Source: a virus
IMG/VR virus record: IMGVR_UViG_3300024277_000014
Location: 1 to 20,933 of that record
Reading direction: 5' to 3' (one strand)
DNA: 20,933 nucleotides
A model generated the notes under the pieces. It saw only the letters and a list, made by a program, of their open reading frames with translations. It searched no databases and was not told the DNA's origin. The translations under genes were made by a program, and so were the position numbers. The number at the start of each line of letters is the position of its first letter. Position 1 is the stretch's first letter. Positions 10,719 through 17,628 of the stretch are shown piece by piece.

Positions 10719-10915
10719 GCCTCACCCCCGAAATGCGCGCGCGGGCGCGAGTCTTGGGGCTGGCGATCACCCGCCAAATCCCCGGTGGTCCGCAGTGCGT
10801 CGGCGATCTCTCGGGCCGAAACCTTTTCGCCGGCCTGAGCACGATCGAGCAGGCGATGTGCTGCGGCTCGTTCGGCTTGGGCGACAGCGGTTGGGAAGCG
10901 ATGGAACAGGTTCAT
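10715..10915 (-). CDS. small helical protein of replication operon
   Basis: A 66-residue protein, start MNLFHRFPTAVAQAERAAAH, with a segment AGEKVSAREIADALRTTGDL that resembles the end of a small HTH or dimerisation helix. I do not recognise the family. I chose ATG 10915 because AAGGAGG lies 7 bases upstream and the codon overlaps the helicase-loader stop as ATGA; the same frame extends upstream to 10978, but that part overlaps the loader gene. It is also ATGA-coupled to the zinc-knuckle gene downstream. Confidence 0.65.
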   Translation of the reverse strand: MNLFHRFPTAVAQAERAAAHRLLDRAQAGEKVSAREIADALRTTGDLAGDRQPQDSRPRAHFGGEA

Positions 10916-11706
10916 GCCGCGGCCTCCTTGCGAGCCTGGGGTCGGTAGCTTTCCCACTCGAACGGCACCAGCTTGCATGTCTCACGCAGGCGGTCGAAAG
11001 TGCGCTCCCCGATGTAGGCCTTGAGCCCTTCGGCGTCCTGGTTGGTCAGCAGGATGGTGGGCTTCATGGCGCGGTAACGGCCGTCGAGCACGTCGAACAG
11101 GATCGTTTGCTCGCCGTCGGTGCCGTACTGCACGCCCATCTCGTCGATGACGAGCAGGTCGAGCCCGGACAGGTAGGTCAGCACCTGGCGCTCGGACTTC
11201 TCGGAGTCGCGGCGCCACGTCTCGCGCACCATGCGGATCAGGTCCAAGCAGGTGGCGTAGAGCACGTCCTTGTCAAGGTGGGCCTGCAGGACGGAGCTGG
11301 CGAGGTGGCTTTTGCCGGTGCCTGGCTTGCCCGAGAGGATCAGGCCGCGGCCGTTGCGGGCGTTCTCGTCGAAGTTGTCGCAGTAGTCGCGCAGGATCGA
11401 CAGGGCCCGGCGCTTGTCGTCGGTGTCGGCCTTGAAGTTCTCGAAGGTGCGGCCCACGAAGCGCTCGGGGACTGCGGCACGGCCGATAAGCTTGCGATGG
11501 CGAAATTCACGGGCTTTGCGTGCGTCTTCCTCGGCCTTGGCTTCCTCGGCAGATCGGCGCTGCGCCTCACACTGCGGGCACCTCGACCAAATCCTGGCGA
11601 TGATGTGCCGGCTCGTGTACTGGCCGTGTGTCTCGCATGTCGCCGGCTTTTCGGTGACTTCTGCGGACTCATTGCTCGTGTCGAGCCAATCAGGCAAGCG
11701 ATCCAT
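10912..11706 (-). CDS. DnaC-like helicase loader ATPase
   Basis: A 264-residue AAA+ protein of the DnaC/IstB type. Walker A is GKPGTGKS at 126-133, Walker B LLVIDE at 184-189, a sensor-1-like TILLTNQD follows at 217-224, and GERTFDRLRE near 233-242 gives the arginine-finger region. The N-terminus has Cys24, His27, Cys43 and Cys46, a probable zinc site. Known role: it loads the host replicative helicase DnaB at the phage origin, as DnaC or lambda P does. It overlaps the initiator gene by 17 bases. The pairing with a DUF1376/DnaT-like protein is common in prophages. Confidence 0.9.
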   Translation of the reverse strand: MDRLPDWLDTSNESAEVTEKPATCETHGQYTSRHIIARIWSRCPQCEAQRRSAEEAKAEEDARKAREFRHRKLIGRAAVPERFVGRTFENFKADTDDKRRALSILRDYCDNFDENARNGRGLILSGKPGTGKSHLASSVLQAHLDKDVLYATCLDLIRMVRETWRRDSEKSERQVLTYLSGLDLLVIDEMGVQYGTDGEQTILFDVLDGRYRAMKPTILLTNQDAEGLKAYIGERTFDRLRETCKLVPFEWESYRPQARKEAAA

Positions 11707-12502
11707 CTGCGTTCACTCCTGCGGTGTAGTCCTTGGCTTGGAAGCCGGCGTGTGATCCGGCGCGGCGTTGTGCGGCCTGCGGTTGAGGCCTTGACGCGGC
11801 CAGCACTTGGCGGGTCTTGAGGCTCTTGGCGAGGGCGTTGTCCCACTCGGCCTGAGTGCGAAGCTCGTGCGACTTGGCCAGCCAGAAGCCCCGAAACTCG
11901 TTGAGCCCTTCAGCCATCGCTGCGGCATCGAGCACTGGCAGCCCGGCGAGCTTGGCCTGCACGGTGAACCCTGGACCGGGCAGCCATTCGGCAGTCATCG
12001 CGAACACCTCGTTGTCGATCGCTGGCGCGCGCGCTGTTGTTGTTGGTGTATTACTGGCTATGGTTATTGGTATGGTGCTGTCTGTGGTGCACGTTTCGTG
12101 CTCCGTTCGTGCGCCTCCGTTGCCATGTTCGTGAGCACGTTTCGTGCTGCCTTCGTGGTCTGCTTGTGCGTCTTTCTCGGCACGTTTGCGGGCCTCGCGT
12201 GCCAGGGCGATCTCACGGTTCTTGTCTGAGCGCTTCTCTCCTTTTTCGAGTTCGGCCTCGATGCGCTTGTGCCAAAGCTTGCCGTCCTTGAGCTCAAAGA
12301 AGCCCATGACCTCCTTGACGCCGTCACGCTCTGCTTTGCTGAATGCCCCAGCGATCCGGCAGCACGCTGCGTGCTCGGCCGGGAGGGGCTCCTCTGTGGC
12401 GTAGTAGTGGTGCATCAGGGCCAGATAGGCCCCGCGCGCAGTCAGCGACAGATGCGTGGTGTCGCGCTGGAAGTCGCCGATGTAGTGCTTGTAATAGTTC
12501 AC
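11690..12502 (-). CDS. DUF1376/DnaT-like replication initiator
   Basis: A 270-residue protein of two domains. Residues 1-90 match the DUF1376 (YdaU-type) pattern: MNYYKHYIGDFQRDTTHLSL, then RGAYLALMHHYY and FFELKDGKLWHKRI. Residues about 168-232 match the DnaT C-terminal domain (EWLPGPGFTV, GFWLAKSHELRTQAEWDNAL). The 75-residue linker between them is low-complexity, rich in His, Glu and Thr. It is in this linker that the DNA holds iterons and an A+T-rich stretch (see separate features). Known or presumed role: origin recognition and primosome assembly, equivalent to lambda O. The start overlaps the HNH-like gene by ATGA. Confidence 0.85.
   Translation of the reverse strand: MNYYKHYIGDFQRDTTHLSLTARGAYLALMHHYYATEEPLPAEHAACCRIAGAFSKAERDGVKEVMGFFELKDGKLWHKRIEAELEKGEKRSDKNREIALAREARKRAEKDAQADHEGSTKRAHEHGNGGARTEHETCTTDSTIPITIASNTPTTTARAPAIDNEVFAMTAEWLPGPGFTVQAKLAGLPVLDAAAMAEGLNEFRGFWLAKSHELRTQAEWDNALAKSLKTRQVLAASRPQPQAAQRRAGSHAGFQAKDYTAGVNADGSLA
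12031..12086. other. A+T-rich stretch next to iterons, probable DNA unwinding element
   Basis: Within the initiator gene, bases 12036-12078 contain 26 A or T of 43, whereas the surrounding genes are strongly G+C-rich. The stretch lies on the C-terminal side of the iterons, the same polarity as the A+T-rich region in lambda gene O. Role inferred. Confidence 0.55.
12089..12157. repeat. iteron cluster, probable replication origin
   Basis: Five copies of TTCGTG (plus strand) start at 12095, 12106, 12128, 12141 and 12152, spaced 11, 22, 13 and 11 bases, close to helical phasing. Two of them sit in a longer perfect repeat, GCACGTTTCGTGCT, at 12089-12102 and 12135-12148. Each of these is itself an inverted repeat (GCACG and CGTGC arms around TTT). 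The cluster lies in the linker-coding part of the initiator gene, as lambda ori does in gene O. Confidence 0.65.
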
Positions 12503-13891: not shown

Positions 13892-13920
13892 AGTATCGCA
13901 ATCTTTTGCGATTCATGCAA
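13892..13920 (-). promoter_or_regulatory. candidate PR promoter for cro and replication operon
   Basis: On the minus strand TTGCAT (13920-13915) and GATACT (13897-13892) are 17 bases apart. The -35 overlaps operator 2 and the -10 overlaps operator 1. Seven bases after the -10 falls the A of the cro ATG. The hexamers are imperfect, but position and operator overlap support the call. Confidence 0.55.
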
Positions 13921-15954: not shown

Positions 15955-16215
15955 ATGGAACACCCTGCACTCACCCGCGAACAAGTCGAGGCCATGGACG
16001 AAACCATGACCTTCAGCACGCGCCGCGTGACGCAACTGCACCGCCGCAACGAGCTGGGCGACCACTTCCCGGCGCCTGGCGTGATCGAGCACCACACGCG
16101 ACCCGGCCTGCTGTCCCGCCTGTGGAACCGCCTGACCGGCGCGCAGCAGGGCCTGCTGATCCTCGTTGGCTCGGCTGCGGCCGTCGTGAGCGCTTTTGTG
16201 TGGGCGGTGTCATGA
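15955..16215 (+). CDS. small protein with C-terminal membrane anchor
   Basis: An 86-residue protein. The N-terminal 60 residues are polar and charged (MEHPALTREQVEAMDETMTF at the start), and residues about 65-85 form one hydrophobic segment (GLLILVGSAAAVVSAFVWAV) that runs to the end, so it is tail-anchored in the membrane. I chose ATG 15955 because GGAGG lies 8 bases upstream. ATG 15895 in the same frame has no ribosome site but overlaps the interrupted ORF by ATGA. No family recognised. The stop overlaps the exonuclease start as ATGA. Confidence 0.65.
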   Translation: MEHPALTREQVEAMDETMTFSTRRVTQLHRRNELGDHFPAPGVIEHHTRPGLLSRLWNRLTGAQQGLLILVGSAAAVVSAFVWAVS

Positions 16216-17048
16216 GCAACCTCAAGATCATCACCGCCGCCGAGTACCACGCTGACGAGGCGGTGGGCAATTCGATGCTGTCGTCGCTCAAGGACTCGCC
16301 CGCGCACTGCTATGCGCTGCACATGGCGCCCGGTCGTCCTGAGCGTGTCGAGACTGCGGCCATGCGCCTGGGCACCATGACGCACACCGCGATCCTGGAG
16401 CCTGACGAGTTCCGCAAGCGCTACACGATCAAGCCCGAGGGCCTGAGCCTGGCCAGCAAGGAAGGCAAGGCATGGAAGGACGCGATGGGCGGCCTGGAGA
16501 TCATCACACGTGAAGAAGCCGACATGGTGGATCAGCAGCGCGGCGCGATCCTGGGCAACCCCGAACTCGCCCGCCTGTTCTCATTTGGCAGCCCTGAAAT
16601 GTCGGCCTTCTGGATCGACAGCGCGACGGGCCTGCGTTGCAAGTGCCGCCCCGACTGGCTGCAGTTCACCGGCCCCAACCGTGTGCGCGTGGTGGACCTC
16701 AAGACCACGAACGACATCACGCTCGATGCGGTGTCGAAGTCTGTCGCGAACTTTGGCTACCACCGCCAGCAGGCGCACTACACGCGCGGCCTGGAAGCGT
16801 GCGGCCTGGTCGTCGAGGACTTTGTCTTCGCGTTCGTGACCAAGGCTTACCCGTTCTTCGCCCTGCCCTATCGCATCGAGGACGCATCACTCGCCCAAGG
16901 CTACGAAGAAGTCGGCGAGCTGCTTTCTCTGTTCTCCAACTGCAAGCGCGCCAACGAATGGCCGCTGTCCGGCGCCGGGGTGCAGTCGGTCGGCCTGCCT
17001 CGCTGGGCGCTGCGTGAAGCCGAAATCGAGGTGTCTTATGTCTCTTGA
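16212..17048 (+). CDS. PD-(D/E)XK exonuclease, RecE C-terminal/DUF3799 type
   Basis: A 278-residue protein. The start segment ITAAEYHADEAVGNSMLSSL, then MRLGTMTHTAILEPDEF (His58, Glu63), then CRPDWL (Asp148) and VVDLKTTNDIT (Asp162, Lys164) are the catalytic pattern of this family; YHRQQAHYTRGLEA gives the following conserved Gln-Tyr helix. Known role: 5'-3' digestion of duplex DNA to leave 3' single strands for annealing, as RecE or lambda Exo. The ATG overlaps the preceding stop. It lies in the PL operon, as exo does in lambda, and overlaps the next gene by 11 bases. Confidence 0.88.
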   Translation: MSNLKIITAAEYHADEAVGNSMLSSLKDSPAHCYALHMAPGRPERVETAAMRLGTMTHTAILEPDEFRKRYTIKPEGLSLASKEGKAWKDAMGGLEIITREEADMVDQQRGAILGNPELARLFSFGSPEMSAFWIDSATGLRCKCRPDWLQFTGPNRVRVVDLKTTNDITLDAVSKSVANFGYHRQQAHYTRGLEACGLVVEDFVFAFVTKAYPFFALPYRIEDASLAQGYEEVGELLSLFSNCKRANEWPLSGAGVQSVGLPRWALREAEIEVSYVS

Positions 17049-17628
17049 CGTGTCCAACCTGCGCCCGACCATCATCCCGAAGTCGGATCAGCTCAACGCC
17101 GACCAGCTCGTGGGCGGCCCCATGACCGTGACCATCACCGAGGTGCGAGTCACCGCGAGCGATGACCAGCCGGTGATCATCCATTACCAGGGCGAGAACG
17201 GCCGTCCCTACAAGCCGTGCAAGACCATGCGCAAGGTGCTGATCTTCGCTTGGGGTGAAGACGGGCGCCAATGGGCTGGCCGCTCCATGACGCTCTACAA
17301 CGATCCGTCGGTGCGCTTCGGAAACGCCGAGGTCGGCGGAATCCGCATCAGCCACATGACGGACATCGAGCAGCCGGTGCGCGTGAGCCTGGCCGCGACG
17401 AAGGGCAAGAAGGCGCTGCACACGATCGAGCCCCTGACGCTGGTCACGCTGGACCAGGTCAAGACCGCGATCAGCACGGCCACGAACAAGGCCGGCATGG
17501 AGCGCGCCAAGCAACTGGCGATGCAACTGCCGGGGGACCAGATCCCCGAAGCCCTGGAGCTGTACCGGGCCAAGGTCGCCGAACTCAAGGCAGGCAAGCC
17601 GTCAGAGCCGGGCCAGAGCGCCGCCTAA
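17038..17628 (+). CDS. unrecognised partner of the exonuclease
   Basis: A 196-residue protein that overlaps the exonuclease stop by 11 bases. Residues about 1-125 have alternating hydrophobic and charged residues and conserved-looking segments (GGPMTVTITEVRVTASDDQP, YKPCKTMRKVLIFAWGEDG, GIRISHMTDIEQPVRVSL), consistent with a beta-rich, OB-like fold. Residues about 135-185 are helical. It sits where lambda has Bet and other phages have RecT or Erf, but I see no motif of those families. A single-strand DNA-binding or annealing role is an inference from position. Start ATG 17038 is preferred over 17014, which lies deeper inside the exonuclease gene. Confidence 0.72.
   Translation: MSLDVSNLRPTIIPKSDQLNADQLVGGPMTVTITEVRVTASDDQPVIIHYQGENGRPYKPCKTMRKVLIFAWGEDGRQWAGRSMTLYNDPSVRFGNAEVGGIRISHMTDIEQPVRVSLAATKGKKALHTIEPLTLVTLDQVKTAISTATNKAGMERAKQLAMQLPGDQIPEALELYRAKVAELKAGKPSEPGQSAA

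Follow-up and report, generated by a model that had tools for sequence, protein, structure and literature searches.

A likely phage replication origin inside a DUF1376-type initiator gene, and related linker repeats across the gene family

Introduction

Replication origins that lie inside the gene of their own initiator are known from bacteriophage lambda and its relatives, including the iteron-bearing Shiga phages (PMC7466680). The middle of lambda gene O, and of its lambdoid Shiga-phage counterparts, contains iterons followed by an A+T-rich tract, and the gene of the helicase loader comes next. A comparable arrangement is found in the pSK41-type RepA_N initiators, where a winged-helix N-domain binds sites within its own gene, the origin encodes the linker and the C-domain recruits the replication machinery; in pPR9 the N-domain and the in-gene origin have been exchanged together (PMC5703833). 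Unwinding elements, for their part, can contain short tandem repeats, as in Vibrio cholerae ori2 (ATCA, RctB) and RK2 (GGTT, TrfA) (PMC10316083). The Rac prophage of E. coli also carries an active origin, oriJ (PMC3945230).

Here we describe an initiator gene of the DUF1376 type in a virus record of 20,933 bases, the whole stretch of DNA that was analysed and which we refer to as the window. It meets the lambda-type in-gene layout, with iterons and an A+T-rich tract inside the initiator gene, in the same polarity, and a loader gene next to it. The array is likely to be a phage replication origin inside the initiator gene; its origin activity is inferred, there being no binding or replication data.

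The initiator gene and its surroundings

The initiator gene occupies positions 11690-12502 on the minus strand and encodes a protein of 270 aa with a DUF1376 domain, a disordered linker and a DnaT-like domain. Both domains meet their curated Pfam cut-offs, PF07120 (DUF1376) with an E-value of 6.8e-24 (84.5 bits against a cut-off of 30.1) and PF17948 (DnaT DNA-binding domain) with 1.2e-8 (35 bits against 25), while in PHROG the protein matches families of primosomal and of replication initiation proteins. The DUF1376 domain (aa 2-86; 12245-12499, minus strand) is a predicted winged helix and our proposed iteron-binding domain; the DnaT-like domain (aa 167-232) is encoded at 11807-12004 on the same strand. 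Adjoining the initiator gene is that of a DnaC-like helicase loader (10912-11706, minus strand; phrog_50, E 2.1e-74). No Pfam domain other than DUF1376 and DnaT was found in the initiator at E<=0.001, and neither a lambda O-type domain nor RepA_N was matched, which leads us to infer that the protein works like lambda O or RepA_N without belonging to either family.

In the AlphaFold2 model of the initiator an ordered N-domain runs into a long helix, followed by a low-confidence linker (residues ~131-180, with pLDDT down to about 55 or less) and C-terminal helices. The DUF1376 domain modelled alone reaches a mean pLDDT of 91.5 and has the appearance of a winged helix. Its alignments with VIA-align were mostly to winged helices and weak (best Z 5.7, with Rep structures at only 4.2-4.8), and since all Z values under 6 are too weak to support it, a structure-based family assignment of the domain was dropped. 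Foldseek searches with the models gave no match at E<=0.001, and no convincing solved relative was found by sequence.

Two HTH repressor-like genes lie near the initiator gene. Further along, at 16122-17628, an Exonuclease VIII-like gene comes before a conserved one whose function is unknown (phrog_11517, E 1.7e-56), and the two probably make up a recombination module. The GC skew of the window changes sign near 14 kb; this coincides with a change in gene direction and nothing was drawn from it.

An array of hexamers in the linker-coding DNA

The hexamer TTCGTG occurs five times on the plus strand, at 12095, 12106, 12128, 12141 and 12152, in steps of 11, 22, 13 and 11 nt. On the strand of the gene the copies read CACGAA and stand at about nt 345-407 of it. 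Iterons 1 (12152-12157), 3 (12128-12133) and 4 (12106-12111) are all on the minus strand; iterons 2 (12141-12146) and 5 (12095-12100), on the same strand, each lie within a palindromic repeat (12135-12148 and 12089-12102, respectively). These palindromes are the two copies of a 14-mer, GCACGTTTCGTGCT, which contains the inverted repeat GCACG-TTT-CGTGC. A longer repeat of 23 nt, not assigned to a strand, can be traced around them: copy A (12089-12111) includes the 14-mer, and copy B (12135-12157) is 91% identical to copy A at a distance of 46 nt.

TTCGTG is a mildly common hexamer in the window (22 copies, 11.25 expected). Five copies in 63 nt are exceptional, and nowhere else in the window do at least five fall within 70 nt. 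As a null model we used synonymous-codon shuffling, which preserves the protein and its codon usage; none of 2000 shuffles of the gene gave five copies of any hexamer per 70 nt (P<=0.0005). The repeats of the linker as a whole also beat this null, with p between 0.003 and 0.007 when the entire gene was shuffled and 0.003 when only linker codons were. The five hexamers fall in reading-frame phases 0, 2, 0, 1 and 0, and of the two palindromes one is in phase 1 and the other in phase 2, so that neither protein sequence nor codon choice accounts for these copies. In the period test neither the 11-nt nor the 7-nt period of the window gene was individually significant.

Beside the iterons lies our proposed unwinding element (12034-12080, minus strand), a tract richer in A+T and poor in G in which CCA recurs irregularly on the strand of the gene. 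A+T makes up 26 of the 43 bases at 12034-12076, in a window of ~65% GC that has four such places in all, and the G content of the tract is 14%, compared with 30-32% in most of the gene. The other three places with at least 26 A+T per 43 bases are at 13894, 14620 and 15044. Read from the sequence, the CCA steps of the tract are irregular (5, 7, 6 and 11 nt); the window gene lacks a significant 7-nt period and does not meet the criterion of a tandem 7-nt ACCARWM repeat 3' of the iterons, as found in its relatives (see below). We propose that the tract is a degenerate counterpart of that repeat, an inference from sequence alone.

The first-pass annotation of this stretch had claimed the five TTCGTG copies and their steps, a perfect 14-bp repeat that is itself an inverted repeat holding two of them, the A+T-rich stretch of 26 in 43 bases, their placement in the region coding for the linker of a DUF1376/DnaT-like protein, and a likeness in design and polarity to lambda ori inside O. 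All of this held. The exact positions of the hexamers were confirmed, the 14-bp repeat is in addition part of the 23-nt repeat, and the placement is borne out by the Pfam domains and the low-pLDDT linker.

Linker repeats across DUF1376 genes

Virus contigs, genomes and phage records supplied 385 DUF1376 genes, which were reduced to 110 representatives with less than 70% protein identity. Single proteins served as queries because an alignment of ten diverse DUF1376 proteins contained no stretch conserved enough for collection scans; a scan of genome contigs with the window protein found no relative. Each gene was scored for how densely 7- or 8-mers recur within 160 nt, and the score was set against synonymous shuffles, the longest other ORF of the same loci serving as controls. 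Repeat density was significant at p<0.01 in 82% (k=7) and 71% (k=8) of the 110 DUF1376 genes, as opposed to 6% and 4% of controls, and in 85% of DUF1376 genes when shuffling was restricted to linker codons. In the 93 genes significant at k=7 or 8, the repeat peaks centre a median of 140 nt past the DUF1376 domain. Lambda O shows this signal too, at the place where its iterons are annotated, and lambda P gave none. Kinship remains a caveat: requiring domains of less than 50% identity leaves 12 of the 110 genes, 58% of which are significant. The closest relative of the window protein (L001, 47% identical) has two perfect copies of the palindrome GTCACGCGTGAC in its linker, in the same place as in the window and with a different repeat sequence.

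The repeats of the family resolve into two elements. Periods of 7, 14, 11 and 22 nt are enriched at p<=0.01 in 54%, 36%, 38% and 16% of DUF1376 genes, respectively, other periods in no more than 9%, and the corresponding values in controls are 0-3%. Not one of these four periods is divisible by three, so the repeats cycle through the reading frames. Wherever both blocks are significant, the 11-bp block comes first and the 7-nt block follows on its 3' side (29 of 29 genes), at a median of 46 nt. The 11-bp blocks are iterons whose sequence varies between groups, whereas the 7-nt blocks, in the 59 genes with a significant 7-nt period, mostly follow a single consensus, ACCA(G/A)(A/T)(C/A) or ACCARWM; the exceptions are A+G-rich units in L010, L128 and L143. 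At least three tandem HCCANNN units are present in 72 of the 110 genes, against 5.7 expected from shuffles, and on the opposite strand in one. The longest G-free run was also tried as an indicator of the second element and, unlike the 7-nt period, did not differ significantly from the codon null. The linkers of L010, L128, L134 and L143 carry A+G-rich short repeats (e.g. AGAAGAG) in place of ACCA heptads. The iteron string AACGACCGTTCAACGACCGTT is common to L010 and L013, from Pseudomonas and Moraxella phages, whose proteins are only 18% identical. Helicase loaders (P-like or DnaC-like) or DnaB-like helicases are often encoded downstream in the relatives.

Virus contigs scanned for heptad arrays returned at least 120 stretches. 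In 81 of 120 the array falls within a DUF1376 ORF, strand-matched and 66-260 nt past the domain. No DUF1376 ORF was assigned to the remaining 39; several are intergenic and a few are in apparently truncated or frame-shifted DUF1376 genes. Also among them are two proteins outside the DUF1376 cut-off that resemble other initiators, one with a sub-threshold DUF1376 match (L482:469-1335) and one with none (L472:5400-6197). Arrays occur in other places of viral contigs as well, for instance L406:10290-10405.

Iteron sequence appears to follow the N-domain. Among gene pairs whose C-termini are unrelated, an iteron 9-mer is shared in ~3-8% of cases where DUF1376 identity is below 0.5 and in 40% where it is at least 0.7; pairs with similar C-termini and DUF1376 identity of 0.3-0.5 share one in 8-13%. 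The iterons thus follow the DUF1376 domain and not the C-terminus, which recalls the joint exchange of N-domain and origin in the pSK41/pPR9 plasmids (PMC5703833). Physical linkage may account for part of this, which makes it support and not proof. DnaT-like C-domains of the window type (68-72% identical) are also found fused to other N-domains, at L002:2470-3327, L003:117-857 and L004:2596-3336. None of these N-domains has a DUF1376 match, and the combination of one C-domain with differing N-domains indicates that initiators swap N-domains. In L003, repeats of the TGTCCGCA type lie within the DNA that codes for the N-terminal part.

The first-pass annotation had named the lack of any repeats in the same linker of close homologues as an outcome that would refute an origin. 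That outcome did not arise, L001 and most of the 110 genes carrying such repeats, and the origin reading survives this comparison with homologues. The interpretation as an origin is thereby supported, with actual origin function still inferred. The annotation had also stated that it knew of no described origin for DUF1376-type initiators; we found no paper connecting DUF1376 with a replication origin in the open-access literature searched, and none of the DUF1376 papers there concerns origins, judged by title and abstract, most subscription papers being outside the reach of the search. It had not mentioned the family-wide pattern, nor the conserved 7-nt repeat after the iterons in most relatives. 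In-gene origins as such are already known (lambda, pSK41), and it is possible that the DUF1376 version, and also its second element, are new.

A proposed mechanism and its rivals

Computation shows the iterons and their excess over the codon null, the constant position that they have in the family, their linkage to DUF1376 and, in the relatives, the strand-specific 7-nt repeat. What these elements do is a matter of inference, from binding by the protein through unwinding and loading of the helicase to activity as an origin. We propose that the predicted winged helix of the DUF1376 domain would bind the CACGAA iterons, spaced about one helical turn, in the DNA of its own linker. The resulting complex would open the A+T-richer, G-poor tract that follows the iterons in the 3' direction of the gene strand. 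In relatives the initiator, or proteins working with it, may, hypothetically, grip the ACCARWM heptads in single-stranded form. The host helicase would then be positioned by the C-terminal DnaT-like domain together with the DnaC-like loader of the next gene.

A bolder reading makes this a family rule. DUF1376 initiators would share a two-part in-gene origin, made up of clade-specific iterons for the N-domain and the conserved, strand-specific heptad ACCARWM, which would be opened and used as a single strand in the manner of the DnaA-trio and the RctB ATCA repeats, across unrelated C-termini and perhaps in other initiator families (L482, L472). We would not wager on this generalisation in either direction.

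The alternative that survives best concerns the second element only. The G-poor, CCA-rich 7-nt repeat of the relatives could act in RNA (Rho utilisation or antitermination), or be a spreading heptanucleotide satellite, instead of an unwinding element. This remains possible: the coding strand is G-poor at the repeat, Rho sites are likewise G-poor, and 39 of the 120 recovered arrays lie outside assigned DUF1376 ORFs, several of them in intergenic DNA. Against it stand the 81 arrays inside DUF1376 ORFs, all on the same strand and 66-260 nt past the domain, the position of the repeat 3' of iterons, and the precedent of short tandem repeats in the unwinding elements of V. cholerae ori2 and RK2 (PMC10316083).

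Alternatively, the iterons could control the initiator gene, by autorepression or handcuffing, or be operators of a phage repressor, with replication starting elsewhere. Regulators typically have palindromic sites, two HTH repressor-like genes are close by, and iteron plasmids are known to use their iterons for control as well as initiation. However, sites ~345-407 nt into a gene are poorly placed for an operator, their position is kept in the family, and an operator would not predict an adjoining A+T-rich or 7-nt element; we hold this to be very unlikely. Also very unlikely is that the repeats have no function and arose merely through slippage or tandem duplication within a linker of low complexity. 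Linkers tolerate changes in length, duplication copies codons, so that the codon null alone does not exclude it, and codon-level repeats such as AACCAG occur in some relatives. Yet strong enrichment is confined to periods of 7 and 11 and their multiples, one heptad consensus with few exceptions prevails in 59 genes and on one strand (72 genes versus 1), the order of the elements is fixed in 29 of 29 genes, and the copies in the window are interspersed and partly palindromic. Repeats at the protein level are disfavoured by the frame-cycling periods, the phases in the window, the strand bias and the linker-only shuffle.

If the in-gene origin is accepted as the preferred reading, DUF1376, a domain of 'unknown function', acquires a specific and testable role, inferred to be the binding of iterons as part of an initiator, and origins can be predicted in many proteobacterial phages and prophages, the Rac prophage of E. 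coli among them. The 7-nt repeat of the relatives would be a new candidate for the site of origin opening, with binding sites and unwinding element both in coding DNA, and N-domain and iterons are apparently inherited as one module. Overall, in a large and unstudied family of phage replication genes, linker DNA doubles as repeats of the protein-binding type (the binding being inferred) and a strand-specific CCA repeat.

Comparison with known systems

The Rac prophage offers a relative of the window gene in E. coli K-12. Its ydaU encodes a DUF1376 protein with significant linker repeats (p=0.001), and the adjoining ydaV is annotated as an ATP-binding protein. The linker of ydaU (L517:10460-10600) has repeats around (A/G)TGTTCAA and an 11-nt perfect inverted repeat, ATGTTCAAACA/TGTTTGAACAT. 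It differs from the relatives with ACCA heptads in that an A-rich tract follows the repeats and no heptads are present. These repeats are a possible candidate for oriJ, the position of which relative to ydaU is not established; beyond the Rac papers, a search of the open-access literature for oriJ gave only unrelated work.

The heptads resemble the DnaA-trio, the RctB ATCA repeats and the RK2 GGTT repeats in being short direct repeats that adjoin double-stranded initiator sites (PMC10316083), and GGTT of RK2 is the other-strand form of the AACC in the DUF1376 heptad. Unlike them, the heptad unit is 7 nt long with an ACCA core, lies in coding DNA and is irregular in the window, and its binding as single-stranded DNA is hypothetical. 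The RepA_N plasmids (pSK41) are like the DUF1376 proposal in that the sites of the N-domain lie inside its own gene and the origin encodes the linker. They are, however, plasmids of Firmicutes whose C-domain binds DnaG primase, without a loader partnership, and the window protein has no Pfam match to them and only weak similarity to Rep structures (Z 4.2-4.8).

The closest likeness in layout is to lambda. The lambda protein is of another Pfam family, the window protein being DUF1376 plus DnaT, and its iterons are 18-nt sites in steps of 20-24 nt, as opposed to a hexamer in steps of 11-13 and 22 nt. The A+T-rich tract of lambda stands where DUF1376 relatives carry the 7-nt repeat. The lambda iterons are found at nt 348-432 of O and those of the window at nt 345-407 of its gene, and the lambda O succession of N-domain, iterons, A+T-richer tract and C-domain is matched by the window.
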